31,888 nt of DNA from a virus. The stretch spans positions 1 through 31,888 of the IMG/VR virus record IMGVR_UViG_3300020478_000036; one strand, given 5' to 3'. Under the pieces are notes generated by a model. That model was not told the origin of the DNA and searched no databases. It saw only the letters and a list, made by a program, of their open reading frames with translations. Made by a program: the position numbers and the translations under genes. Below are positions 9,718 to 31,729 of this stretch, piece by piece (position 1 is the first letter of the stretch; every line of letters starts with the position of its first letter).

Positions 9718-10068
9718 ATGCCAAAAAAGAAAAAAGACAAATATCAGGAATTAATGTTAAAAGGTCTAAAAGATCTTCAGATTAAACTCGGATCGGGCGC
9801 AGGACCTACCATACCTACTAACCCATTAAAAAATCGAAAGTATACAGTTGATAAATCAGGTCATGTACAATTTCAAAACTCAGGTGGCAAAATATATAGA
9901 CCTATATTAAAAGTTAATAAAGAAGGTAAAATTGTAGACTCTGGTAAAATTAGACAACCTGATGGTACTGTAAAAATTAATCCTAAAACTTATAAATTTA
10001 AAAACTCAGGTGGCAAGATTTCTAAATACTATGCCGGCGGTGGAAACGTAATAACTGGGAGAGACTAA
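9718..10068 (+). CDS. Small basic protein 1 with shared C-terminal TGRD tag
   Basis: This 116-aa protein has a very basic start (MPKKKKDKYQELML) and ends with the tag GGKISKYYAGGGNVITGRD (residues 98-116). A second SGGKI occurs internally (about residue 57), within a beta-like repeat region (QPDGTVKINPKTYKFKNSGG). The next two genes end in close variants of the same tag while their N-terminal parts differ. SD AGGGAGA follows the terminator. The final codons contain GGGAGAGA, the SD of the next gene, and the stop overlaps its start (TAATG). It may be an internal-head or capsid-targeted protein; the function is unknown. Confidence 0.8.
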   Translation: MPKKKKDKYQELMLKGLKDLQIKLGSGAGPTIPTNPLKNRKYTVDKSGHVQFQNSGGKIYRPILKVNKEGKIVDSGKIRQPDGTVKINPKTYKFKNSGGKISKYYAGGGNVITGRD

Positions 10069-10313
10069 TGCCAATTAAAATAGTACCAAAAAATAAAAAG
10101 AAATCAAAATCAGCTAAGCTAGCTGAAAAAAGTTTTAGTGAAACATATAAAGAAAGAATGCCAAGTGGTACTCCTTCACTTTCTGAAGCTATATTAGCCG
10201 GTGGTAAAATGGCTTGGAGAAAAGGTAAACATGCTTTAGGTTATAATAAAGGTGGAAAAGTTTCTAAGAACTGGTCATCATGTGGAGCTAACATAATAAC
10301 TGGGAGAGACTAG
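10068..10313 (+). CDS. Small basic protein 2 with shared C-terminal TGRD tag
   Basis: This 81-aa protein starts with a Lys-rich stretch (MPIKIVPKNKKKSKSAK), has a helical middle (ERMPSGTPSLSEAILAGGK) and ends GGKVSKNWSSCGANIITGRD, the shared tag with one extra residue. Its start codon overlaps the preceding stop, and the SD is carried by the preceding gene's TGRD codons. Its own TGRD codons (ACTGGGAGAGAC) serve the next gene. The net charge is strongly positive, suggesting nucleic-acid or acidic-scaffold contact. Confidence 0.8.
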   Translation: MPIKIVPKNKKKSKSAKLAEKSFSETYKERMPSGTPSLSEAILAGGKMAWRKGKHALGYNKGGKVSKNWSSCGANIITGRD

Positions 10314-10314
10314 T

Positions 10315-10539
10315 ATGAAAAATTCTGTTTTAAGTAAAATAGCTCCACAACATAAAAGACCACCTAAGATTAAAAAAGGTCCCCTTGATGATGGTTTAGG
10401 TCATGGATGGTTTGGAACTTTATATCGCGCAAATAAACATAATAGACGTAAAAAGATTGCACCAATTACTAGACAAAAAGGTGGAAAGATTTCTAAGTAC
10501 TACTCTGATGGTGGTAATGTAATAACTGGAAGAGACTAA
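10315..10539 (+). CDS. Small basic protein 3 with shared C-terminal TGRD tag
   Basis: This 74-aa basic protein (KHKRPPKIKKGPL-like N-terminal half, GLGHGWFGTLYRANKHNRRKK middle) ends GGKISKYYSDGGNVITGRD, almost identical to the first copy. Here the Gly codon is GGA instead of GGG and the next gene has its own SD (CGGGAGGG) downstream of the stop, so the tag is kept without an SD role. That argues for selection on the peptide. Confidence 0.8.
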   Translation: MKNSVLSKIAPQHKRPPKIKKGPLDDGLGHGWFGTLYRANKHNRRKKIAPITRQKGGKISKYYSDGGNVITGRD

Positions 10540-10556
10540 CATAACGGGAGGGAACA

Positions 10557-10802
10557 ATGTACGTTATAAAAGCGGCAAACGGTAATATATATCCAGTAGA
10601 AAAGTGTGTCTACAGAATAGGAGCAGCAACAGGCGGTGGTTATAAATTAACTCATTTATCACTTATAACTGTTACTGAATCAGCAGGTGCTGAACCAAAT
10701 CCTGGATTAACTGATAATCCAGCAGCAGCAACAGCTGGAGACTTACTAGGTTATATAGGTAAATCAGGTAGATTTATTGCTATAACAGAACCTGCTACGT
10801 AA
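10557..10802 (+). CDS. Small hypothetical structural protein
   Basis: This 81-aa protein is beta-rich and nearly uncharged, with IKAANGNIYPVEKCVYRIG at the start, GGGYKLTHLSLITVTE in the middle and YIGKSGRFIAITEPA at the end. SD GGGAGGG is 6 bases upstream. The composition fits a small head or tail surface protein. No family is recognised. Confidence 0.7.
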   Translation: MYVIKAANGNIYPVEKCVYRIGAATGGGYKLTHLSLITVTESAGAEPNPGLTDNPAAATAGDLLGYIGKSGRFIAITEPAT

Positions 10803-10814
10803 AAGGAGTAGGGG

Positions 10815-11159
10815 ATGTCGAAACAATATGAATTTAATTTTGAGAGTGCAACAGTAAAGCCTAAAGAAAATATTAAAGCTAAATTTGATTTGCAGTCCGG
10901 TAGTTGGGCTGCAGAGCAAGATGTTACACATTTTAAAAAACATATCGATAATGAAAAACAAAGACAAGAATATTTTGGTCTTAATAAAAGTAGTGGTTAT
11001 AGAAAGATGGCAACTATCCCAGATATTATTGCAATAGCAATTAAAGAAAAATATGGGATAGATTTACATGATCCTACATTTATGCATGATATAGATAAGA
11101 AGGCAAAGTTTAAACAGATATTAACAACTGAATATCCACATCTTATGTATAGTACTTAA
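10815..11159 (+). CDS. Hypothetical protein, candidate head-completion factor
   Basis: This 114-aa soluble, charged protein has an N-terminal beta-like segment (QYEFNFESATVKPKENI) and a helical C-terminal half with KMATIPDIIAIAIKEKYGID and KFKQILTTEYPHLMYST. Proteins of this size and style are common between capsid and adaptor genes in podoviruses and often bind the portal-adaptor region; here that is inference. SD AAAGGAGTAGGGG precedes the ATG. Confidence 0.72.
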   Translation: MSKQYEFNFESATVKPKENIKAKFDLQSGSWAAEQDVTHFKKHIDNEKQRQEYFGLNKSSGYRKMATIPDIIAIAIKEKYGIDLHDPTFMHDIDKKAKFKQILTTEYPHLMYST

Positions 11160-11171
11160 AGGGAGATTATA

Positions 11172-12245
11172 ATGGCTTTAACATATACGGAGCTAACGAC
11201 TTTAGTTAGGACTTGGTGTAATAGGGATGAAGAAGTAGTTTCTGATAGTGTTATACAAGATGCTTTACAATATGCAGCAGATAAAACTTATAGAACTTTA
11301 AGGGTTCCTCCTTTAGAGAATGTAGCGGTTTTTGTTAATACTGATAGTGAATTAGATAATGCAACAGTAGCAGCTACAAATATTAATCCAAGTAAAACTG
11401 AAATACAAGTACCTCAAGATTTAGTAGAAATTATTGCAATAAAAGAAACTGATTCAGCTGGTAATACAATAAGAGTATTTAATGAAAAGTTAGATGTAAG
11501 AACTTTTAATGATCCATTTGCAGAACGTTATACTAATAATAACTATTTTACTAGAGAAAGAAATGTTATATTTTTAAGTCCTGGATTTGGTTATTCTAAT
11601 TTAGGAACGGCAGCAAATATAGAAGTATATTATTATAGAAGACTTCCTGCATTAAATGCAAAGTATGCAGTTACAGAACTTAATTATGCTGCAGGATTAT
11701 TAACAACTTCAGGTGGGACTACCCCTTTATATTTTGTTAATGGAAATACAACGACGGCTTATGAAACTTTAGCTAAAGCTGAAACTGCTGATACAGGAAA
11801 AGTTACAGCTAAGGTAAATGGTGCAGTAAGTAACTCAACAGCTTTAACTAATGATACACGATCAGGTACTGTTGTTAATGGAATGCAAATATCTGGAACA
11901 GGAATTAGTGGTGTACCTACAGTATCAAATGCTTCTAATCAAAATAGTATTGTTATGTCCGCAGCACAAACAATTGCTGATGATGTTGATTTAATATTTT
12001 CTAATACAAATACTGCAAACTATATAGGTATAGATGTACCACATTGGTTAAGAGATGAAAATGAACGAATATTGGTTTACGGAGCATTGGCTCAAATATA
12101 TGCATTTACCCAAGATGATATTCAAGCGGCTAAGTTTGATAAATTATTTTACTCGGAAATAGCAGAACTAAATACAGCTGATAGACAAAGACAAGCATCA
12201 GGTGGTAATGTACAAATGAATTTTAACGGAAGAGGTATGATATGA
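11172..12245 (+). CDS. Head-to-tail adaptor protein (gp4/gp11-like) with inserted domain
   Basis: This 357-aa protein begins with the helical pattern typical of podovirus adaptors (YTELTTLVRTWCNRDE, VIQDALQYAADKTYRTLRVPPL, residues 4-48), continues through a beta region (PQDLVEIIAIKE, about 81-92) and YYYRRLPALN, and resumes near residue 285 with PHWLRDENERILVYGALAQI and a final helix. Between about 176 and 280 lies a Thr/Ser/Asn-rich beta insertion containing GMQISGTGISGVPTVS, a motif repeated in many phage surface proteins, so this copy likely carries a decoration domain. It would dock on the portal ring and hold the nozzle. SD AAGGGAGA supports the start. Confidence 0.82.
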   Translation: MALTYTELTTLVRTWCNRDEEVVSDSVIQDALQYAADKTYRTLRVPPLENVAVFVNTDSELDNATVAATNINPSKTEIQVPQDLVEIIAIKETDSAGNTIRVFNEKLDVRTFNDPFAERYTNNNYFTRERNVIFLSPGFGYSNLGTAANIEVYYYRRLPALNAKYAVTELNYAAGLLTTSGGTTPLYFVNGNTTTAYETLAKAETADTGKVTAKVNGAVSNSTALTNDTRSGTVVNGMQISGTGISGVPTVSNASNQNSIVMSAAQTIADDVDLIFSNTNTANYIGIDVPHWLRDENERILVYGALAQIYAFTQDDIQAAKFDKLFYSEIAELNTADRQRQASGGNVQMNFNGRGMI

Positions 12246-13366
12246 CAACTCCAGCAAGACCTGGGAAATTTACAGGAGCTACAGATACTGCCTCAGCAGG
12301 TAGTTATTTTGGAACAACACTACTTAGTGGAATATCAGACTTAGTTGCAGCTGATGTATCTTCTGCACAAACTTCAGCTACTAATGCAGCTACTAGTGAA
12401 ACTAATGCATCAACAAGTGCAACAACAGCAAGTACTCATGCAACAACGGCACAAAAGTTTGCTACTAATCCACATAATACACAATTTACTCATGATTCTA
12501 GTAACTACTATTCAGCATTACATTATGCTACTGAAGTATCGAATCAAACTACTTTAGCAACAACTGCAAGGACTGATGCACAAAAGTTTGCTACTAATGC
12601 TGCTAACTCTGCTTTTACATATAGTGGAAGTAGTTATTATTCAGCATTACACTATTCAGCAGCAGCAAGTACTTCTGCAACTGCAGCCGCTAGTAGTGCG
12701 ACTACTGCAGCAGGTCATGTTACTAGTGCAACTACTCAAGCAAATAATGCAGCTACAAGTGCGACTGCAGCTGGTAACAGTGCAAGTACTGCAAGTAGTC
12801 ATGCGACTACTGCAAGTGATAAAGCAACCCTTGCAACTAACTGGGCTACTAAGACAAATGGTGAACCAGAAACTGGTCAAGGTTATTCTGCTAAAGCTTG
12901 GGCTATAGGTGGTACAGGTGTAGATCATGCTTCAGGTGCTGGTAATGCTAAAGACTGGGCAATCGAAACAACAACAACTGCAGATAATACAGAGTATAGT
13001 GCTAAAGAATATGCAATAGGAACTCAATCAGGTCAAAGTGCTGGATCAGCTAAACAATGGGCTATTGGTGGTGGTTCTGGATTTACTACAAGTACAGCAG
13101 TGGCTGGAGGTTTATATTCAGCTAAGTATTATGCAGAACAAGCAGCAGCTTCAGCAGATAGTTTTGATGATGTTTATCTTGGTCCAAAGAGTTCTGATCC
13201 TACACAAGATAATGATGGAGATGCTTTAACATCTGGAGATTTATATTATAATACTGGAAGTAGTGAATTAAAGGTTTATAGTGGATCAGCTTGGGAAACT
13301 GCAGCAGTAAGTACATCAGGATTGCCAACTGCAGGTTTTACAATCGCAATGGCAATAGCCTTATAG
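12242..13366 (+). CDS. Tail fibre protein with Ala/Ser/Thr coiled-coil repeats
   Basis: This 374-aa protein overlaps the adaptor stop by four bases (ATGA). After a short N-terminal segment it has long Ala/Ser/Thr-rich stretches interrupted by two repeats of AQKFATN followed by YYSALHY (about residues 75-100 and 118-143), then a series of AKxWAIG / SAKEYA / AKYYAEQ units (about 215-300), then FDDVYLGPKSSDPTQDNDG and YYNTGSSELKVYSGSAWE near the end. This module order is typical of trimeric marine-phage side fibres. The low-complexity codon pattern makes long open frames in other phases; these are shadows. It is likely the main fibre shaft, linking tail to the mini-fibre modules downstream. Confidence 0.85.
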   Translation: MTTPARPGKFTGATDTASAGSYFGTTLLSGISDLVAADVSSAQTSATNAATSETNASTSATTASTHATTAQKFATNPHNTQFTHDSSNYYSALHYATEVSNQTTLATTARTDAQKFATNAANSAFTYSGSSYYSALHYSAAASTSATAAASSATTAAGHVTSATTQANNAATSATAAGNSASTASSHATTASDKATLATNWATKTNGEPETGQGYSAKAWAIGGTGVDHASGAGNAKDWAIETTTTADNTEYSAKEYAIGTQSGQSAGSAKQWAIGGGSGFTTSTAVAGGLYSAKYYAEQAAASADSFDDVYLGPKSSDPTQDNDGDALTSGDLYYNTGSSELKVYSGSAWETAAVSTSGLPTAGFTIAMAIAL

Positions 13367-13376
13367 GGAGAAAGGA

Positions 13377-13748
13377 ATGGCACAAAATTTTAGAAGGTAT
13401 GCATTAAGAAGTATAGGTACAACAGCAGCAGATGCTCCTGATGGTACTGATTTTAATTCATATGATACAATAATAGGAATACATTTAGCAAATAGAACAA
13501 CTAATACAATTAATGCTACTGTATTTATCACAGACTATAATGACGATGCAGATGATGATCCAACAAATAATGCTGCTAATACGTACTACTTATTAAAAGA
13601 TGCACCTATACCAGCAGGATCTGCATTACAAGTAATGGATGGTGGAGCTAAGATCGTTGTTCAAGATGGTGATCGATTATGGATTCAATCTGATACAGCA
13701 AGTTCATTAGACGCATGGGTTTCTGTTGTAGATGCAATAAGTACATAG
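13377..13748 (+). CDS. Fibre-associated virion protein
   Basis: This 123-aa beta-rich protein (FRRYALRSIGTTAADAP at the start, YYLLKDAPIPAGSALQVMDG and KIVVQDGDRLWIQSDTA later, ending VSVVDAIST) belongs to a type I recall beside fibre genes in many marine podoviruses and myoviruses. It probably forms a small beta-sandwich attached to the fibre or tail. SD GGGAGAAAGG precedes the ATG, and it is the first small gene after the shaft protein. Confidence 0.75.
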   Translation: MAQNFRRYALRSIGTTAADAPDGTDFNSYDTIIGIHLANRTTNTINATVFITDYNDDADDDPTNNAANTYYLLKDAPIPAGSALQVMDGGAKIVVQDGDRLWIQSDTASSLDAWVSVVDAIST

Positions 13749-13757
13749 GAGAGTTAA

Positions 13758-14258
13758 ATGGGATATGTAGGAAATCGAGCAAGTAGTTCCTTTAATAGTA
13801 TGACTAAACAAGATCTTACAGGTGCTAGTGGTAGTTCATTAACTTTATCAAATGTAGTAGCTAATGAAAATGAAATAGAATTATTTATTAATCATGTTAG
13901 ACAAGAACCAACAACATCTTATACAGCAAGTGGAACTACTGTTACATTGCAAGGTTATTCTGTAGCAGCAACTGATGATATATATGTAATATATGCAGGT
14001 AAAGGTCAACAAACTACAGTAACACCAGATGGCTCTGTAACAAGTGCTAAGCTAGGTAGTGGCGTTGTACATGGTTTAGGAATATTTAAAGGTGATACCT
14101 CACAAGACTTAGGTGCTATTATAAGAGTACATGAAAATGAATTAAATTCAAATGTAACTATTGATGCTAATACAAATGGAATAGCAAGTGGACCATTGAC
14201 AATAGCTAGTGGTGTTACATTAACTATAACTAGTGGAGGAGCATTGTCAATCGTATGA
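13758..14258 (+). CDS. Mini-fibre module with 'GVTLT..SGG.L.IV' C terminus
   Basis: This 166-aa protein is beta-rich (LTGASGSSLTLSNVVANE, SVTSAKLGSGVVH) and ends NGIASGPLTIASG followed by VTLTITSGGALSIV, a parallel-beta-like tip shared with the genes at 16140 and 18526. All three are followed at once by a gene with an MS(S/T)-x-L type start. Its last codons contain GGAGGAG (SD), and the stop overlaps the next ATG (ATGA). It would be a fibre or adhesin component; the receptor is unknown. Confidence 0.8.
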   Translation: MGYVGNRASSSFNSMTKQDLTGASGSSLTLSNVVANENEIELFINHVRQEPTTSYTASGTTVTLQGYSVAATDDIYVIYAGKGQQTTVTPDGSVTSAKLGSGVVHGLGIFKGDTSQDLGAIIRVHENELNSNVTIDANTNGIASGPLTIASGVTLTITSGGALSIV

Positions 14259-14902
14259 GTACATTAAAAGTTAATACAATACAAGATACAGCTACTAATA
14301 ATGCTATGACTATTAGTGGTGGTGTTGTTACATTTCCTAATAAACCATCAGGAACAACTTCATTAGAGTTAATTGCTAGTGATACCACAGGTGGTAGTGG
14401 TGCAACTATTGAATTTGATTTATCTACAAATACTAAATACTTTTCACAAAAATTAATAATTTGGGGAGTATACAGAACTGATGGTTCTGATGGTGATCTT
14501 TATGGGTCAGCAAGAAATGATGCTGATAACTCTTATATTGGTAGTGGATATTATACCAGTGTAGTTGGTTATCATTCCCAAGGTAGTGGTGGCAGAACTA
14601 ATTCAAATGCAGGTGATTGGAATGCAACTTATTTCAGAATTGGTGGTTACAATATTGGAGACAGTGCAGAACATGAAGATAATGTATGGGAATTTGATTT
14701 TTATAATTCTATAGGTACTACAAAAAGAATGTCTTACATCGGAAGAAGAATTGGACACAGTTCTGATGCTACACTTGCAGTAGAAACTTTTGGTGGAAGA
14801 TTATTACATACTGCTCAAATTGATAGATTTAAATTAGAAAATGGTTCTGGTGCAACTACAGGTTACGCAGGCTATCAGCTTTACGGATTATTAAAAGCAT
14901 AA
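14255..14902 (+). CDS. Mini-fibre protein, MSTLKV-type N terminus, jelly-roll-like
   Basis: This 215-aa protein is the longest module of the array. It begins MSTLKVNTIQDTATNNAM, the short connector found on most members of the array, followed by a Gly/Ser/Asp-rich beta domain (TTSLELIASDTTGGSG, FSQKLIIWGVYRTDG) and ends AGYQLYGLLKA, the end strand typical of beta-jelly-roll phage tip proteins. It starts in an ATGA overlap. The domain after the connector differs from that of the tandem family at 15215-17666, as expected for exchangeable receptor-binding tips. Confidence 0.8.
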   Translation: MSTLKVNTIQDTATNNAMTISGGVVTFPNKPSGTTSLELIASDTTGGSGATIEFDLSTNTKYFSQKLIIWGVYRTDGSDGDLYGSARNDADNSYIGSGYYTSVVGYHSQGSGGRTNSNAGDWNATYFRIGGYNIGDSAEHEDNVWEFDFYNSIGTTKRMSYIGRRIGHSSDATLAVETFGGRLLHTAQIDRFKLENGSGATTGYAGYQLYGLLKA

Positions 14903-14917
14903 ATAAAGGAGATAGGT

Positions 14918-15211
14918 ATGCCAAGATTTAAAATGGTAAATGGAGAAAGAATCCAGCTTACATCAGAAGAAGAAAAAGAAGTAGATGCGAAGATAAAGGC
15001 ATGGGCTGATGGAGCTCCTTCTCGTAGAATGTCTGCCTTAAGAGAAAAACGAAATAGATTATTAGCAGAAACAGATTGGATGGCTAATTCAGATGTAACG
15101 ATGAGTGCCGATTGGAAGACATATAGACAAGAACTTAGAGATATTACAAAACAAACACCAACTGATGATGACCTTAGTAATATTAAATTTCCAGCTAAAC
15201 CTAAGGAGTAG
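14918..15211 (+). CDS. Tail-fibre assembly chaperone-like protein
   Basis: This 97-aa charged helical protein carries RNRLLAETDWMANSDVTMS and DWKTYRQELRDITKQTP (about residues 45-82), the hallmark of the phage tail assembly chaperone family (Phage_tail_APC type), in which 'LLAETDW...YRQALRDIT' is conserved. Such proteins help fibre tips trimerise. It has its own SD (AAAGGAGA) and lies among mini-fibre genes, as chaperones usually do. The N-terminal 45 residues (MPRFKMVNGERIQLTSEEE) are a short beta-like start plus a charged helix. Confidence 0.88.
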   Translation: MPRFKMVNGERIQLTSEEEKEVDAKIKAWADGAPSRRMSALREKRNRLLAETDWMANSDVTMSADWKTYRQELRDITKQTPTDDDLSNIKFPAKPKE

Positions 15212-15214
15212 ATA

Positions 15215-15679
15215 ATGGGTACATTAAGATTAAGCGAAATACAAAACCCTAGTGGTACAAGTGCTATAACAGTAAATGAAAGTACTGGTATTACTGGTTT
15301 TCCTGCAGGTTTATCAGGTAGTATTACTGTACAAGGAGAAGGTAGTAATAATACTAATCTTCAACAAGGATTAACAAAACATTGGGTATATTTTAAAGGT
15401 ACAACTACAACTGAAATAAAAGATAGTTTTAATTGTTCTAGTTTAGGGGATAATGGAACAGGTGATACTACAACTAATATGACAACTGCCTTTAATAGTG
15501 CTTTTTATTGTGGTGCATCTAATGCAGCTTATGGTAGTACAAATGGTGGTAGAGGTTTAAGTGCTCCACATAATGATGCTATAAATACAACATATATACG
15601 AATAAACTCTCACTCAGGAACTAATACTGCAACTGATTTATTATATAATATGTTTTCTATTGATGGAGATTTAGCATGA
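15215..15679 (+). CDS. Mini-fibre protein, tandem family copy 1, GDLA end
   Basis: This 154-aa protein starts MGTLRLSEIQNPSGTSAITV (connector), then VQGEGSNNTNLQQGLTKHWV and a domain with DSFNCSSLGDNGTGD, and ends SIDGDLA. It is the first of five adjacent paralogs (15215, 15676, 16349, 16789, 17253) sharing K-x-W, DS-x-N-x-(S/A)S and D-x3-G signatures and, in most, the NNM element. The codons of the final GDLA (GGAGATTTAGC) are the SD of the next gene, whose ATG overlaps the stop. It is probably a fibre tip or virion adhesin. Confidence 0.82.
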   Translation: MGTLRLSEIQNPSGTSAITVNESTGITGFPAGLSGSITVQGEGSNNTNLQQGLTKHWVYFKGTTTTEIKDSFNCSSLGDNGTGDTTTNMTTAFNSAFYCGASNAAYGSTNGGRGLSAPHNDAINTTYIRINSHSGTNTATDLLYNMFSIDGDLA

Positions 15680-15687
15680 GTACATTA
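15665..15687 (+). repeat. Gene-junction repeat, exact copy 1
   Basis: A 23-base junction, GGAGATTTAGC followed by ATGAGTACATTA, spans the end of one mini-fibre gene and the start of the next. It is identical to 16778-16800. It encodes GDLA and stop in one frame and MSTL in the other, and holds the SD. A copy with two mismatches lies at 17242-17264 and a half copy at 17652-17666. Confidence 0.9.
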
Positions 15688-16122
15688 AAAGTCGGTGCAA
15701 TACAAAGCACAACAGGTAATGCAGCAGTAACAGTTGCAGCTAATGGTAATCTCACTATTCCAGGAGCTACTAGTATATCTAATACTTCTACATATAATTC
15801 AGATGGAGGAGCAGTCAATCAAAATCTTGTACAAGCAATAGTTAAGGTCTGGAGAAAGTTTAATGGCAGTGATGCAAGCTCTTATGATTCATTTAACATC
15901 TCATCAGGTACAGATAATAGTACTGGTAATTATACTCATACCTTTTCTAGTAATATGAGTGCATTACATTATTCAAATACTTTAGGAAATAACACAAGTG
16001 GAAACTATATAATTACAGTAAATGGTACTGCTACAAGTTCTTTAACAACTAAATCAATGAGTGATAGTACAGCTGCACATGATGACGATGGTGCATTAAC
16101 ATTACATGGAGACCTCGCATAA
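15676..16122 (+). CDS. Mini-fibre protein, tandem family copy 2, GDLA end
   Basis: This 148-aa protein starts MSTLKVGAIQSTTGNAAVTV in an ATGA overlap. It has NLVQAIVKVWRKFNGSD, DSFNISSGTDNSTGN and a beta region, and ends TLHGDLA. Its GDLA codons are GGAGACCTCGCA and the overlap has been lost: the stop is TAA and the next gene uses a separate SD (AGGAGATT) 18 bases later. The GDLA residues are kept although they no longer supply the SD, so they probably matter in the protein. Confidence 0.82.
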   Translation: MSTLKVGAIQSTTGNAAVTVAANGNLTIPGATSISNTSTYNSDGGAVNQNLVQAIVKVWRKFNGSDASSYDSFNISSGTDNSTGNYTHTFSSNMSALHYSNTLGNNTSGNYIITVNGTATSSLTTKSMSDSTAAHDDDGALTLHGDLA

Positions 16123-16139
16123 ATAAATAGGAGATTAGT

Positions 16140-16352
16140 ATGCCAAGAAGTACAATAAGTGTAGGATACTTTCAGGGAGATGGAGGTACTGCAGTAGGTG
16201 ATAAAGCCAATATATTTAGGACAGTCGAAAAGACTTTAAACACAAATACAACAATAGCAGCGACTGACAACTCTTATGCTCCAGGTCCAATTACAGTGGC
16301 AAATGGAGTTACACTAACAGTTGCAAGTGGTGGGAGGCTCGTAATAGTATGA
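16140..16352 (+). CDS. Short module ending 'GVTLTVASGGRLVIV'
   Basis: This 70-aa protein (starts MPRSTISVGYFQGDGG) is mainly the beta tip seen on the 13758 and 18526 products: NTTIAATDNSYAPGPITVAN then GVTLTVASGGRLVIV. It looks like a minimal or shortened version of those genes, keeping only the end module. Its last codons GGGAGG act as the SD and overlap the next MSTL gene (ATGA). It has its own SD AGGAGATT. Confidence 0.75.
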   Translation: MPRSTISVGYFQGDGGTAVGDKANIFRTVEKTLNTNTTIAATDNSYAPGPITVANGVTLTVASGGRLVIV

Positions 16353-16792
16353 GTACATTAGCAGCAGATACAATTACAAATGTCGCTGGGAGTTCAGCAG
16401 GAACTACTATCACCATAGATAAAGACTCTACATTTAATTCTGAAGGTACAGCAGTTACACAGAATCTTATAACAGGAGTCAATAAGCAGTGGATAAATTA
16501 TAGTATGCACGATGCATCAATTAGGGATAGCTTTAATACAACTAGCATTACAGATAATACAACTGGTGATTTTTCAATTACTATTGCAAACAATATGGCT
16601 AATACTACTTACGTAACAGCAGTAGATGGTAATTATAATTTAGCTAATGGAAACTATACTGCTGGTAGTGCCAATGGTTTAGAAATATATAGACAAATGA
16701 CAACAACAGCATATGATCATATTGCCGCTTCTTCAGGAAGCACATACGATTTTAAATGGGTATTAAGTTGTAATCTAGGAGATTTAGCATGA
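16349..16792 (+). CDS. Mini-fibre protein, tandem family copy 3, GDLA end
   Basis: This 147-aa protein begins MSTLAADTITNVAGSSAG and has NLITGVNKQWINYSMHD, DSFNTTSITDNTTGD, an ANNMANTTYV element and the ending SCNLGDLA. It overlaps both neighbours by ATGA. The K-x-W, DSFN and NNM signatures align with copies 1, 2, 4 and 5, while the region after NNM is highly variable, consistent with a shared scaffold and a changeable surface. Confidence 0.82.
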   Translation: MSTLAADTITNVAGSSAGTTITIDKDSTFNSEGTAVTQNLITGVNKQWINYSMHDASIRDSFNTTSITDNTTGDFSITIANNMANTTYVTAVDGNYNLANGNYTAGSANGLEIYRQMTTTAYDHIAASSGSTYDFKWVLSCNLGDLA

Positions 16793-16800
16793 GTACATTA
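16778..16800 (+). repeat. Gene-junction repeat, exact copy 2
   Basis: This is the same 23-base junction as 15665-15687 with no mismatch. It joins copy 3 and copy 4 of the tandem family. The identity exceeds that of the flanking coding DNA, so it may be a recent recombination product or a preferred crossover site. Confidence 0.9.
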
Positions 16801-17256
16801 GTAGTAGACCAATTACAAGGTGCAACAAATAATACAATTACAATACCAGCAGGAACAACGATAACAAATAGTGGAACAGCTAATAACTTTGGTGTATCAG
16901 ATCCTAATGCAAGTTCGTCTACATTAGTTAAACAATGGATAAACTATAAAGGTAGCTCTACTAATGAGATTAGAGATAGTATTAATTGTTCATCAGTTAC
17001 AGATAGTTCTGCTGGAAATTACAGACCTGTCTTTACTAATAACATGGATAATACTACTTATGCTTTATATGGTTGTAGTGATGGCAGAGGAAGTGGGGAT
17101 ACCCCAGATGATGGAATGTTTGTTTTAGGAACAACTAGTACATATAGTATTGCACAAGCTACTAATACTTATGGTATACTTTGTGGAACTTATCAAAATG
17201 GATCAAGATTGGATATAGATAATGTTCATATACACATAAATGGAGATTTAGTATGA
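16789..17256 (+). CDS. Mini-fibre protein, tandem family copy 4, GDLV end
   Basis: This 155-aa protein starts MSTLVVDQLQGATNNTITI. It contains STLVKQWINYKGSSTNEI, DSINCSSVTDSSAGN and FTNNMDNTTYALYGC, then a variable region and HIHINGDLV. It has ATGA overlaps at both ends; the junction with copy 5 differs from the exact repeat at two bases (GTATGA and ACACTA). It is likely an adhesin or tip subunit. Confidence 0.82.
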   Translation: MSTLVVDQLQGATNNTITIPAGTTITNSGTANNFGVSDPNASSSTLVKQWINYKGSSTNEIRDSINCSSVTDSSAGNYRPVFTNNMDNTTYALYGCSDGRGSGDTPDDGMFVLGTTSTYSIAQATNTYGILCGTYQNGSRLDIDNVHIHINGDLV

Positions 17257-17666
17257 GTACACTAGCAATTAACACATTAACAGGACAATCTTCAGCTTCA
17301 AGTATTAATGTAAGAGGTGAAGGTAGTGCTAATACAAATCTTCAGCAGGGATTGGCTAAATTTTGGCATCAAACAAATGCAAGTAGTGGTACTCCTGCTA
17401 CCCAAGATTCACTTAATTTAGCTAGTATAACTGATAATGGAGTAGGAAACTTTACTTTTAATTTTACAAATAACATGGGTAATAATGATTATTCTTTTAC
17501 TCATTATGCAATAACAAGTGGATACTACTCATTATATCATGGTGCTAGTTTATCTGTAGGCACATCATCTTTACAGCTTAGAGATAATCATACTCCTAAT
17601 TTGTCAAGTGCTGACGTAATAGACCATACACATATTAATGATACTATACACGGAGACCTAGCATGA
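17253..17666 (+). CDS. Mini-fibre protein, tandem family copy 5, GDLA end
   Basis: This 137-aa protein starts MSTLAINTLTGQSSASSI. Its VRGEGSANTNLQQGLAKFW closely resembles VQGEGSNNTNLQQGLTKHW of copy 1 although three paralogs lie between, which suggests copies 1 and 5 are sisters or exchanged this segment. It also has DSLNLASITDNGVGN and FTNNMGNNDYSF, and ends TIHGDLA with GGAGACCTAGC as the SD for the next gene (ATGA overlap). Confidence 0.82.
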   Translation: MSTLAINTLTGQSSASSINVRGEGSANTNLQQGLAKFWHQTNASSGTPATQDSLNLASITDNGVGNFTFNFTNNMGNNDYSFTHYAITSGYYSLYHGASLSVGTSSLQLRDNHTPNLSSADVIDHTHINDTIHGDLA

Positions 17667-18130
17667 TTCAAACACCAAAGTTTAAAGGAACACATTTATT
17701 CGCAAGACTAGGTTGGGCTAAAGAAAATCTAGAACCTTTTCAATCAGATATAAGAGTTGTATATGAAGACGGACTAGATGACCCTGCAAAGATATTAGTA
17801 CCAGATCCTAATTGGATGGCTTGTGCCTTACAAGGTGGCATATTACCTCCAGTAGAATCTTATTGGGAATTAGCTAAAGATGAAGCTAAACCTGATTTTA
17901 AAAGACACACAAGAGGATATCTGTTACACGATACAGAACCTGTTGGACCAATGACAGAAGAAGAAGCTATTGAATATCTAATCAAAAAAGATATTCCAAG
18001 TCATATATGGAAAACATGGAATGATGGCAATAAACCTAAAATGGTTATATGTCGTACACACCAGTTACCAAGCAATCGTGAGTGGCGAAATGCTTGGAAA
18101 ATTAATGAAGATATAGAACTAGCAGCATAG
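17663..18130 (+). CDS. Fibre-region accessory protein with 'PSNR.WRNAW' end
   Basis: This 155-aa soluble, charged protein is unlike the fibre modules. It contains VYEDGLDDPAKILVPDPNWM, EEEAIEYLIKKDIPSHIW and a C-terminal LPSNREWRNAWKINED. The next gene begins with a related PSDRHFRNAW segment. Proteins with this 'xRxFRNAW' element are common beside marine-phage fibre genes and may be assembly or chaperone factors, though I cannot name a characterised one. Its start lies in the last ATGA junction of the five-copy array. Confidence 0.72.
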   Translation: MIQTPKFKGTHLFARLGWAKENLEPFQSDIRVVYEDGLDDPAKILVPDPNWMACALQGGILPPVESYWELAKDEAKPDFKRHTRGYLLHDTEPVGPMTEEEAIEYLIKKDIPSHIWKTWNDGNKPKMVICRTHQLPSNREWRNAWKINEDIELAA

Positions 18131-28555: not shown

Positions 28556-29047
28556 ATGATAAGAAAGTTACATAGTAATGATACTATTAAAACTATTACA
28601 TTAATGAATGAGTATATAGAAGCTAATAAAGATTCTCCTTCTATCAGTATGTTAGATAGAAAAGAATCTGTTTGGGTTTCTTATTTTGTTAATGCTATAC
28701 ATGAACAATTAAGTAATAACCCACACTATATTGTAGTAGGGGATTTTGATAATAATAATGATTTAAATGGTTTTATATTAGCCACATCTTTCCAATCGTA
28801 TTATAATAATAGTACAATCATGGATATAAAAGATTGCGTTGTTAAACCAGGATATAAAAATGGTGCTTATGTTGTTGTAAGATTATTTAACGAAGTTATG
28901 AATCATATAAAACAACATGGCGGTAAACATTGGAGGGCAGACTCTATACGAGTTAATGAGGATTCACTTAAGTATGGAAAGTTTTTACAAAAGAAATATG
29001 GAGGTATACTACATTTTTCTGTAAACGGAATTATAAAGGAGACTTAA
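28556..29047 (+). CDS. Putative GNAT-like acetyltransferase
   Basis: This 163-aa protein has an order of elements like a GNAT fold: helix 1 (IKTITLMNEYIEANKD), a beta pair ending IVVGDFDNNNDLNGFILAT, a strand IMDIKDCVVKP followed by GYKNGAYVVVRLFNEVMNHI in the place of the acetyl-CoA loop and helix, then RVNEDSLKYGKFLQKKYGG as the usual 'N..A...Y.K.GF' end. The canonical Q/R-x-x-G-x-G/A loop is weak (GYKNGAYVV). GNAT-like proteins occur beside internal virion genes in marine podoviruses as I recall; the substrate is unknown. The SD is weak (TTGAGGTAG). Confidence 0.55.
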   Translation: MIRKLHSNDTIKTITLMNEYIEANKDSPSISMLDRKESVWVSYFVNAIHEQLSNNPHYIVVGDFDNNNDLNGFILATSFQSYYNNSTIMDIKDCVVKPGYKNGAYVVVRLFNEVMNHIKQHGGKHWRADSIRVNEDSLKYGKFLQKKYGGILHFSVNGIIKET

Positions 29048-29590
29048 ATGGCGAAAGGTGGTGGAGGAAGCGGCACACAAACGGTGGGTATTGATCCAGA
29101 GTTTAAGCCGTATTTAGTAGATACATTAGCTGATGTTACTGCAAAGTATAAAGCAGATAGAGCAGCTGGACCTACTAGTATTGTAGCAAAAATGCATCCA
29201 GATCAAATAGCTGCATTAGAACATGGAAGAAATCAAGCTAGAGATATGATGTTAGGTAGAGGTCTGTATGATGATAGAACAATGGTCAGTAGAGATCTAC
29301 AAAATTTAGCTGGTACTAAAGTTGGTGAAGCTGGTAGAGCAGGACATTTAGGATCTGCAAGATCTCAAAGAGCTATGCAAGGGGCTCTAGCTGATAAAGC
29401 AGATCAATGGAATATTAATAGAAGACAAGTATCCACTGCAGGTAGAGACTTACTTGGTAAGACGGGTAGTGCATGGCAACAATACGAACAATCTTTAATG
29501 GACGCACCACATACTGCGGCGTCTCGATACTTTGGTTACTTAGGTAATGCACCACAACAAACTAAAACAGAAAAATCAGGAGGGAAGTAA
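29048..29590 (+). CDS. Ejection/internal virion-like protein
   Basis: This 180-aa protein has a Gly-rich start (MAKGGGGSGTQTVGIDPEF), then a helical, Ala/Arg/Gln-rich body (DQIAALEHGRNQARDMML, GEAGRAGHLGSARSQRAMQG, ADQWNINRRQVSTAGRDL) and an end AASRYFGYLGNAPQQTK. This pattern is typical of small podovirus proteins that precede the large ejection proteins. SD AAAGGAGAC. Its tail codons (AGGAGGGAAG) supply the SD of the next gene and account for the SGGK end. Confidence 0.7.
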   Translation: MAKGGGGSGTQTVGIDPEFKPYLVDTLADVTAKYKADRAAGPTSIVAKMHPDQIAALEHGRNQARDMMLGRGLYDDRTMVSRDLQNLAGTKVGEAGRAGHLGSARSQRAMQGALADKADQWNINRRQVSTAGRDLLGKTGSAWQQYEQSLMDAPHTAASRYFGYLGNAPQQTKTEKSGGK

Positions 29591-30138
29591 TGATTCGATT
29601 AGCAAGACCTGCTGATGATATGCAAGCAGGACCATTACAACAAAGAAAAAGATATGGTGGACCACCACAAGCAATGCAATTTCAACCTGGCGCTATGTCA
29701 CAATTTGGTGATGCGATGAAAAATAGAATGCTTGAAGAAGGTATGAAAAAGATGGCAGTTAAACAAGGATTAAAAACTGCTGGGGCTGCTGCAGGTGGAC
29801 CTATGGGGATGATGGCTGGTGAGGTAGCTGGTGAACTTTTACCTGCATTACTTAGTAGTTATTTTGATGATGGCGGTGAAGTAGCTTCATTAAAAGAATA
29901 TTTAAAAGAATTACAAGCTAGAGCTGATTATGGTGAAGGCTGGGCTAATGATGAAATAGAATCTACAATAATAAAAATAAAAGACTTAGAAGCAAAAGGT
30001 TTTAATCAAGGAGGTATGGCTGGTATGTTAGGACCTCTATCATTAGAAAGAATTAATAAAGTAAAATATAAAAGAACTGGCGGGAAAGCTTCAGAAGAAA
30101 TCGAAATAGGATTAGGTCCTTTAGCACAAGGAGAGTAA
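29590..30138 (+). CDS. Hypothetical internal/ejection protein with Gly-rich hydrophobic helix
   Basis: This 182-aa protein has a polar start, then KTAGAAAGGPMGMMAGEVAG followed by ELLPALLSSYF (about residues 64-92), a weakly hydrophobic segment that might insert in membranes, and a charged helix (SLKEYLKELQARADYGEGW). DGGEVA and NQGGMAGM resemble short glycine motifs common in marine-phage structural proteins. Together with its neighbours it fits a set of ejected proteins, but no enzyme motif is seen. TAATG overlap at its start. Confidence 0.65.
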   Translation: MIRLARPADDMQAGPLQQRKRYGGPPQAMQFQPGAMSQFGDAMKNRMLEEGMKKMAVKQGLKTAGAAAGGPMGMMAGEVAGELLPALLSSYFDDGGEVASLKEYLKELQARADYGEGWANDEIESTIIKIKDLEAKGFNQGGMAGMLGPLSLERINKVKYKRTGGKASEEIEIGLGPLAQGE

Positions 30139-30139
30139 T

Positions 30140-31729
30140 ATGGCAGCACCATACCAACCAGGATATTCACAGTTAAACTCTGGGAGATTTGGATTTAGAT
30201 TTAAGCCAGAACCTTTTGTTGATAATATTACGCCTGCTTATGGCATGGATGCAGACAAGAATGTTTCGCCACCACCTAACATGAATGTCAATCCAAACCA
30301 ACAATCACAAACTATGCAATTTCAAAATCCAGGTGATAATAATGATGATGATAATTATCAACAAGCAGCTAACCAAAATCGTTTAGCAGTTGCAAGTAGT
30401 TATGGATATGATGAAGTAGGTAAATCAAATCCAATGGGAGTATTACCTGGTGGATCTTTCTTAACTAACTTTTTATATGGTAAAGATGCTAAATTTAATT
30501 TTGGACAACCAGGAACAACTGATACTGCTGGTAATATATTTGCAGAAAGTCCTGCCTCAGGAATAAATCGTTCTTATGATCCTATAACTGGAGCACCAGT
30601 GGGTTATAAAGATCCTAGTGATTGGGGTAAAAGTTGGACTGGACTTGGAACAGAAGAAGGTTTAGGAGGTCCTAGTAGTAGCTATGGACAATTAAGAGCA
30701 GCAGGAGTAAATCCAATTGCATCTGCTTTAGGAAGTTATGAAGATTCTTCTTATTATATTCCATGGGAAGATAGACAATATGGAGTAACTCCAGCAAACT
30801 TAGCGGGAATAAATGATACTGGTGCAAGACTAAGATATAATACTTACTTACAAAATCCGGATTTAATTCCAAATTTTGAAGGAGCACCTTGGACTGATGA
30901 ACCTTATGATGAGACACCTTATAATATATCAAAAGAACAATTAGGTTTTGATGGTTCAAGAATGGAAGGATCTGGTTTAAGAAATTATGATCCTGCTACT
31001 GCACAATTTATGGATAGATCTTTACTTGGAACTCAAGACGCAATTCCAGGTAGAGTTGTTCAACTTAGAGATGGTAGATATGGAGTTGTTAATGAAGATG
31101 GTACTGTTCAAACATCAACAGGTACTCTCATTCAAACTGGTGGAACTTGGAATCCTGATTTACTAGATGATGAAGGTAATAAATCAGGAGGATGGGAGAA
31201 TAGAATTTCTTTATTAGGTAGTCGTGATCCTAATAAAATTACTGGGGAAATAGATAGTGGGTTCGATCCTAATACAATAAATAATAAACCAGGAGGTATT
31301 GATCCATTAGATGAAGGATTTCTACCAGATGAAATTATTTATGATCCTTGGAATAATATGTATGGTGATGGTAGAGGTTATGAAGATACTTTTAATCCAA
31401 CAAATATAGGTCAACATCCTAGCCAATATATTGAAGATAGTTGGATTAATCCGACAGAAGATATATATTCAACTAGTAATATAGATACAACTATAGATGA
31501 TTATAAAGCAGATACAACCTCTGATGGTTGGACTGATGAACCAGGTTATGATACTGAATCAAGTTCTGATCTTAGTAGTAGTGTTAATGAAGGTGCTGAA
31601 GGTGATGTAGTAGGCGGTAGTGATTCAGTTAGTTTTTCAGATGATGCACAATATACAGATCCTTGGGGTGGAGATGAAGGCTGGTGGAATAAAGGTGGAC
31701 AAATACCTAATAGAGCAGGAGGTAAATAA
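30140..31729 (+). CDS. Large acidic hypothetical structural protein
   Basis: This 529-aa protein is rich in Asp, Asn, Gly, Tyr and Pro, with disordered-looking stretches (NPGDNNDDDNYQQAANQ near residue 62; long Asp/Ser-rich C-terminal part) and one compact beta-like segment (PGRVVQLRDGRYGVVNEDG, about 302-320). No membrane segment and no catalytic motif is visible. It ends NKGGQIPNRAGGK, where AGGAGGTAAA is the SD of the next gene. It could be an ejection or internal core protein. Tandem-like phrases with YDPWNN, DDY and GWTDEPGYD suggest local repetition. Confidence 0.65.
   Translation: MAAPYQPGYSQLNSGRFGFRFKPEPFVDNITPAYGMDADKNVSPPPNMNVNPNQQSQTMQFQNPGDNNDDDNYQQAANQNRLAVASSYGYDEVGKSNPMGVLPGGSFLTNFLYGKDAKFNFGQPGTTDTAGNIFAESPASGINRSYDPITGAPVGYKDPSDWGKSWTGLGTEEGLGGPSSSYGQLRAAGVNPIASALGSYEDSSYYIPWEDRQYGVTPANLAGINDTGARLRYNTYLQNPDLIPNFEGAPWTDEPYDETPYNISKEQLGFDGSRMEGSGLRNYDPATAQFMDRSLLGTQDAIPGRVVQLRDGRYGVVNEDGTVQTSTGTLIQTGGTWNPDLLDDEGNKSGGWENRISLLGSRDPNKITGEIDSGFDPNTINNKPGGIDPLDEGFLPDEIIYDPWNNMYGDGRGYEDTFNPTNIGQHPSQYIEDSWINPTEDIYSTSNIDTTIDDYKADTTSDGWTDEPGYDTESSSDLSSSVNEGAEGDVVGGSDSVSFSDDAQYTDPWGGDEGWWNKGGQIPNRAGGK

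Follow-up and report, generated by a model that had tools for sequence, protein, structure and literature searches.

Swapping of the distal tail fibre adhesin in T-even phages, which Tetart is said to have described in 1998, reportedly concerns a single adhesin gene with repeated glycine-rich motifs and no array of slots. In the Ackermannviridae (Kuttervirus), the receptor-binding modules of the paralogous tailspikes TSP1, TSP3 and TSP4 are swapped at a conserved motif; the study describes clustered spike genes with conserved N-terminal parts, the same receptor-binding module on different spike types, and a boundary motif, GTTAVSL, proposed as the recombination site (PMC8432352). In Escherichia coli phages, conserved DNA lies on both sides of an exchangeable receptor-binding region and was proposed to act as recombination hotspots, the downstream motif having a second role as a terminator (PMC10408124). 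Here we describe a related arrangement in the virus record IMGVR_UViG_3300020478_000036, whose 31,888 bases are referred to as the window. It consists of small genes in a row, flanked by an MPYIG-type fibre gene and a conserved 155-amino-acid (155-aa) gene (Table 1), and five of these small genes, the modules, match phrog_11355 (tail fiber protein; E 1.6e-7 to 1.8e-15) and end in GDLA or GDLV. We propose, with a probability of roughly 80%, that this small tail-fibre array is a set of fixed sockets with exchangeable tips. Each module would consist of a slot-specific N-terminal tag of about 25-50 residues, which presumably docks to the fibre or baseplate, and a beta-sandwich body, about 100 residues long, that presumably forms the receptor-binding tip; the bodies would move as cassettes, from an AKxW motif at the tag/body boundary to the GDLA end, between slots and between phages.

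The block found at the ends of these genes, GGAGAYYTAGYATGA, occurs exactly at four sites in the window, all of them on the + strand. When up to two mismatches were allowed there were 6 matches against 0.49 expected, a number reached in 0 of 100 shuffles. The original prediction, made from the letters of the window, had described four ATGA junctions with a common block, two of them identical over 23 bases, and had read the block as terminal GDL(A/V) codons with their stop, a Shine-Dalgarno (SD) sequence and the next start at once. All of this was confirmed. The 23-base identity, GGAGATTTAGCATGAGTACATTA, is between 15665-15687 and 16778-16800, and each block carries GDL(A/V)-TGA in one frame while ATGA opens the next gene in the other. 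As predicted, the next protein begins with MSTL at 15676, 16789 and 17253, and not at 17663, where it begins with MIQT. A fifth GDLA end, GGAGACCTCGCATAA, is an uncoupled copy that includes the rare codon CTC (2% of the 402 Leu codons in the window genes counted), and the next gene starts 17 nucleotides (nt) downstream with its own SD. The region 16108-16139, in which 17 nt and a second SD separate the terminal GDLA block and its SD from the next gene, has the appearance of an imperfect joint.

A total of 699 distinct modules were collected from 256 loci, some of which are overlapping cuts of one contig, and the left-edge motif was found by pattern in 570 of them. To compare bodies in different contexts, we defined a different-tag pair as two modules with at most 7 of the first 14 tag residues equal and with a common stretch within the bodies that is 100 nt or longer and 80% identical or more. 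Sixty such pairs have bodies at least 80% identical in DNA, up to 99% behind unrelated tags. The left ends of the common stretches were located between -45 and +25 nt from the AKxW motif in 52 of the 60 pairs, and the right ends between -9 and +10 nt from the stop in 44 of 58, where about 5% would be expected from length alone. When a single pair per linked group was kept, the proportions were 34/39 for left ends and 27/37 for right ends (binomial p < 1e-20 versus uniform ends, a model that takes only length into account). Breakpoints are not evenly spread; an even spread had been named as the outcome that would refute the original prediction. The 36 pairs with at least 85% identity showed a mean identity of 0.83-0.96 from 6 nt past the motif start up to the junction; outside the cassette the same pairs dropped to 0.26-0.45 downstream of the stop and to 0.31-0.55 upstream of the motif, near the values of random different-tag pairs. 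The blocks agree in random pairs as well, which limits the resolution of the crossover to the block. Peaks at the junction and around AKxW were likewise present in the raw ends of all matching segments, but such peaks could come from slow-evolving tags, and thus the different-tag pairs alone were used as evidence. The two modules carry different junction types, TGA and TAA, in 21 of the pairs at 85% or more, indicating that a body travels without its stop codon, which goes with the downstream gene. Overall, at least 41 transfers were counted (a lower bound, from 38 groups). The junction is thus a recurrent boundary of exchanged DNA, as had been proposed; the exchanged unit, however, is not the whole gene between two junctions, because its left edge is inside the gene.

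Body replacement was also visible between close relatives. The cultured cyanophages Nsp-JY18 and Mel-JY33 share 95.6% identity up to the SKAW codons of the first module, and the similarity resumes at 95.8% at the 155-aa gene. Between these edges close alignment is limited to tag 3 (96% over 53 nt), and Mel-JY33 has two GDLA/ATGA junctions where the Nsp-JY18 ends differ. The array of the cultured SAR116 phage HMO-2011 has the same junctions and a 155-aa gene that is 75% identical to that of the window. A body in HMO-2011 shares 81% identity with one located elsewhere in the array of locus L073, while the tag in front of it matches a different L073 gene. Identity between the window and its nearest relative, L001, is 93.7% in 10479-14556, 93.3% in 15214-15750 and 95.3% in 16128-16468, and the bodies separating these stretches are unrelated; the L001 module 2 body is of a different kind and does not have GDLA. 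The break at 16468 adjoins the AKxW-like motif of module 3, and 16128 is just past the module 2 stop.

The tags, which were sorted into slot classes by regular expressions, follow two orders, A-B-C-155-aa gene and E-F-G-MSKAAEL gene. In the first order A was followed by B in 78 of 100 cases, B by C in 87 of 130 and C by the 155-aa gene in 84 of 109. In the second the successions were E to F (62/64), F to G (51/56) and G to I (37/49). Most of the successions that broke the slot order involved unclassed tags. Related bodies occupied different slot classes in 48 of the 75 pairs with at least 80% identity and in all 22 pairs at 60-80%; from the highest to the lowest identity bin the proportions were 11/22 (95% or more), 10/16, 14/23 and 13/14 (80-85%). 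The number of modules, whose variation had been part of the suggested check, was mostly fixed at three (31/43 arrays of the first type and 25/38 of the second), and the five modules of the window make it the largest of the 43 counted arrays of its type. In 5 of 130 cases, for example, slot B was followed immediately by the 155-aa gene. Such skips suggest an occasional loss of a whole module at the junctions, so this component of the original prediction survives as what looks to be a minority event, while it is mainly the bodies that move.

The junction belongs to the gene family and is not confined to the window. Two kinds of loci were used, the window plus 135 loci retrieved by protein similarity (the protein-fetched set) and loci L140-L320, retrieved by the junction pattern. 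In the protein-fetched set the terminal Gly codon was GGA in 257 of 265 genes ending in GDLx, GELx or GNLx. Internal Gly codons were GGA in 741 of 3114 cases (256 distinct modules), and in 63 of 182 when the Gly preceded Asp. The overall count, 681/699, is biased because L140-L320 were chosen by their junction, and the claim therefore rests on the protein-fetched set and on open reading frames (ORFs) found by a profile of the body without the last six residues. Run on the protein-fetched loci, this profile identified 268 distinct ORFs, 260 of which end in GDLx and 261 of which overlap the next start at -4 (ATGA) or -1 (TAATG); the eight without GDLx have a comparable end, and each of them overlaps the next start. 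The codon bias indicates a constraint on the gene end at the level of both DNA and peptide, which would be expected were GGAGA the SD of the next gene. Conservation of GDLA for the protein alone is an insufficient explanation, since the Gly codon is fixed to GGA. It is still conceivable that GDLA is kept solely for the SD, as the profile-found ORFs include almost no uncoupled member for comparison. The type of overlap follows the next gene, being -1 in 65 of 65 cases before MASE starts and -4 in 50 of 50 before MSEI starts. With the overlapping start forced, only 12 of 699 modules had no near next gene; the 34 genes initially counted as such in a list of stop classes were mostly missed gene calls. 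Bacterial genomes contained 10 matches to the junction pattern, of which one (L323), as judged by eye, had a module-like next gene and the others looked like chance. In L323, a contig from a Methylocystaceae metagenome-assembled genome, a GDLA/ATGA junction at about 3440 (- strand) is followed by a gene starting MSNITVTNVNGRDVDAGQAKAWGSF, which resembles a module tag with an AKAW edge; the bacterial contig is possibly prophage.

Structure prediction was carried out with AlphaFold2 on an alignment of 110 modules picked for diversity from 696 profile hits. In the model of module 5 (mean predicted local distance difference test, pLDDT, 81.2) the strands cover residues 35-133 and no element was predicted in the tag (1-34), so the exchange edges would be domain edges. 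Comparison with viral predicted structures yielded 63 matches at E 0.001 or better, many of them unnamed phage proteins. PDB chains were compared separately and included the receptor-binding domain of the Pam1 tailspike (Z 7.0, 70 residues, root mean square deviation, rmsd, 2.1), snail agglutinins and pyocin fibre tips (Z 4.5-5.4 for these last two groups). Sequence searches of Pfam and of solved structures returned nothing usable. The fold matches fit a predicted fibre-tip or sugar-binding role and are not proof of it. The assignment of the array genes as tail-fibre, that is surface, parts rests on the PHROG matches and this fold resemblance.

The arrangement shares several properties with the Kuttervirus spikes. 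The order of the N-terminal anchors, the tags, is kept while the C-terminal bodies vary, the same body is found behind different anchors in 60 pairs, and the boundaries are marked by conserved motifs, AKxW and the GDLA/SD block. The Kuttervirus proteins, however, are large beta-helix spikes encoded by up to four genes, and the upstream motif alone is described in the part of the paper at hand (PMC8432352); the marine arrays have bodies of about 100 residues, several slots in a fixed order, and a right edge that doubles as the next SD and start. In the E. coli phages the downstream motif is noncoding (PMC10408124), whereas the marine one is coding, SD and start, and exchange in the marine phages runs from slot to slot within one array and also from phage to phage. 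Puniceispirillum phage HMO-2011 (NC_021864) possesses the same gene array, junctions and 155-aa gene, but the annotation calls its array genes simply tail fiber proteins. In HMO-2011-type phages, reported to be among the most abundant in the sea, variation of the tail fibres has been tied to host adaptation, and the portion of that source consulted mentions no cassettes (PMC6918029). In the metaviromic islands of marine phages, host-recognition genes vary strongly, their C-terminal parts most; the section available describes under-recruiting islands, with no unit or edges (PMC3909814). A literature search judged by titles and the openings of abstracts retrieved no description of the junction or the cassette. 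Three features appear to be new: an array of several slots with fixed tags, a cassette that brings no stop codon, and a right edge serving as peptide, SD and start together.

In the mechanism that we propose, the AKxW motif would be the left edge of the cassette and the block noted in the original prediction its right edge. Because the block encodes the last residues of the body, the next SD and the next start, any body ending in it would fit before any next gene with coupled translation maintained, and the downstream gene of the recipient would supply the stop codon. Body ends being uniform on both sides, a body could be replaced without altering the frame, the fold edge or the translation of the next gene. 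Exchange would take place during co-infection, with the short homology at the two blocks helping, and homologous recombination is a plausible driver. A contribution of this short homology has, in our estimate, slightly better than an even chance, and the available sequences do not separate it from random joining plus selection. We consider it doubtful that the edge blocks evolved as recombination ports, a standard joint across many marine phages by which receptor-binding tips are drawn from one pool into any slot, the recipient providing the stop codon and the coupled start. If they did, fibre tips would be genes without a fixed home and the array a rack holding several specificities at once.

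Several observations weigh against the exchange of bodies between fixed edges or limit its reach. The right ends were outside -9 to +10 in 14 of 58 pairs, 4 of them far inside the body and 10 beyond +10. Two breaks between the window and L001 do not fit, one at 15750, inside a tag and 85 nt before the module 2 motif, and one at 14556, in the middle of a gene that is not of the GDLA type. The modules were gathered by the GDLx-end pattern, so that exchanges into other gene ends are under-counted, and 157 of 699 modules fell in no slot class. Other constraints (SD, peptide) conserve both edges in any case, so that the crossover can be placed only within about 15-20 nt and exchange need not be caused by the blocks. 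No recombinase was identified. Foldseek detected no match in PDB at E 0.001, and the best PDB chain in the second comparison, the C-terminal part of the phiAB6 tailspike, was a moderate one (Z 9.0, 93 residues, rmsd 2.8).

Illegitimate recombination could occur anywhere, with selection favouring the joints that keep the tag/body fold, the frame and the SD, in which case the blocks would be the places where survivors join. This explanation, which we hold to be a real possibility falling somewhat short of even odds, agrees with blocks that are already constrained by translation and protein sequence, with exchange edges that equal domain ends, with a few imperfect joints (such as window 16108-16139, L184 and L202) and with a left block so short that random pairs are just 61-68% identical over its 12 best bases. 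It accounts less well for the fact that nearly all joints are clean, 261/268 overlapping at exactly -4 or -1, and for the same tags being in place across many phages, because random joining would often disturb them. An origin of the common window junctions in recent tandem duplication of whole genes, suggested by five paralogues in a row and by the highest module count among the 43 arrays, was rejected as having almost no likelihood. The six genes compared (the five GDL-ending ones and that at 14255) have pairwise DNA identities of 62-73%, near the shuffled baseline of 63-68%, and protein identities of 25-43%, and no body pair from the same locus reached 80%.

Fast divergence of the bodies in place, with slow tags and junctions and no exchange, would explain why same-slot bodies are often wholly different while their tags match. 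It was also discarded, with hardly any probability left to it, since it is contradicted by bodies up to 99% identical in DNA behind unrelated tags and by Nsp-JY18 and Mel-JY33, in which flanks about 96% identical surround bodies that cannot be aligned. Most of the sequences come from assembled contigs, and an assembler could have joined chimeras at the blocks, which are short repeats of 15-20 nt. We regard this as very unlikely. Several joints recur in other contigs at 87-97% identity rather than 100%, for example MASELRV with its body in L081, L115 and L247 as against MSTVKTN with the related body in L070 and L097, on contigs from different metagenomes; and the pattern is present in the cultured Nsp-JY18, Mel-JY33 and HMO-2011. 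On the other hand, both left joints were seen in another locus for only 18 of 56 pairs, a count in which some loci are overlapping cuts of one contig.

The tail-fibre array is one of the variable regions of HMO-2011-type phages. If the rule is that tags stay and bodies travel, their host-recognition parts could be read from metagenomes as tag plus body instead of unrelated hypothetical genes, and receptor change could be counted as body replacements per slot. Whether joints drive mosaicism or are what survives selection would become testable at two defined sites of 15-20 nt.

Table 1. Features of the tail-fibre array in the window.
Feature	Coordinates	Strand	Evidence or remark
Upstream flank gene, MPYIG-type tail-fibre protein opening the array	13758..14258	+	phrog_18673 tail fiber, E 1.3e-6; same family before arrays in relatives
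First small fibre gene, MSTL tag, not GDLA type	14255..14902	+	ORF; L001 similarity breaks inside at 14556
Tail-fibre-assembly-like gene	14918..15211	+	phrog_4912, E 1e-16; absent here in nearest relative L001
GDLA module 1	15215..15679	+	phrog_11355 tail fiber, E 1.8e-11
Junction block: GDLA codons, SD, next start	15665..15679	+	Exact match
GDLA module 2	15676..16122	+	phrog_11355, E 1.6e-7; body (15751-16127) replaced relative to L001
Uncoupled copy of terminal block (GGAGACCTCGCATAA)	16108..16122	+	Pattern match, codon count
Small fibre gene with own SD	16140..16352	+	phrog_5342, E 3.5e-6
GDLA module 3	16349..16792	+	phrog_11355, E 4.3e-10; L001 identity stops at 16468, beside GVNKQW motif (about 16475, from translation)
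Junction block	16778..16792	+	Exact match
GDLV module 4	16789..17256	+	phrog_11355, E 1.5e-11
Junction block, GDLV variant	17242..17256	+	Exact match
GDLA module 5; tag residues 1-34, predicted beta body 35-133	17253..17666	+	phrog_11355, E 1.8e-15; mean pLDDT 81.2
Left cassette edge in module 5 (GLAKFW codons)	17349..17366	+	Motif position; left ends of common segments cluster at motif
Junction block preceding the conserved 155-aa gene	17652..17666	+	Exact match
Conserved 155-aa gene closing the array	17663..18130	+	75% identity to the HMO-2011 gene; very widespread, with at least 595 stretches matched in viral contigs

The 155-aa gene product had no PHROG, Pfam or NCBIfam family match. The tail-fibre-assembly-like gene sits between modules and is missing there in the 93%-identical L001; in HMO-2011 and other arrays, small genes that resemble it differ in position. 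All modules of the window are on one strand, a point to be compared with invertase cassettes of the Mu G segment type. No reverse transcriptase of a diversity-generating retroelement was found among the scanned proteins, a scan that did not include every ORF and in which template repeats were not sought.

The record contains structural, lysis and ribonucleotide reductase genes. Other window proteins match profiles of terminase, portal, scaffold, major head protein, holin and adenosylcobalamin-dependent ribonucleotide reductase, and no DNA polymerase was present among those scanned, a polymerase with a DnaJ central domain being the HMO-2011-type trait. A search of GenBank phages with the window DNA gave no match. 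None of the four consecutive genes at 28556-31729 (163, 180, 182 and 529 aa) matched a PHROG family at E 0.001. A second small array with the overlapping-end design was observed at 9718-10539 of the window, at 3604-4759 of L001 and at about 8640-9392 of L005. Its proteins are lysine-rich, vary in length and N-terminus, and end in GG(N/A)(V/I)ITGRD. The end codons (GGGAGAGACTAATG) serve as SD and start for the gene that follows, both at the first of these ends in the window and at several in relatives, and 21 distinct ends of this wider type were present among the loci collected.

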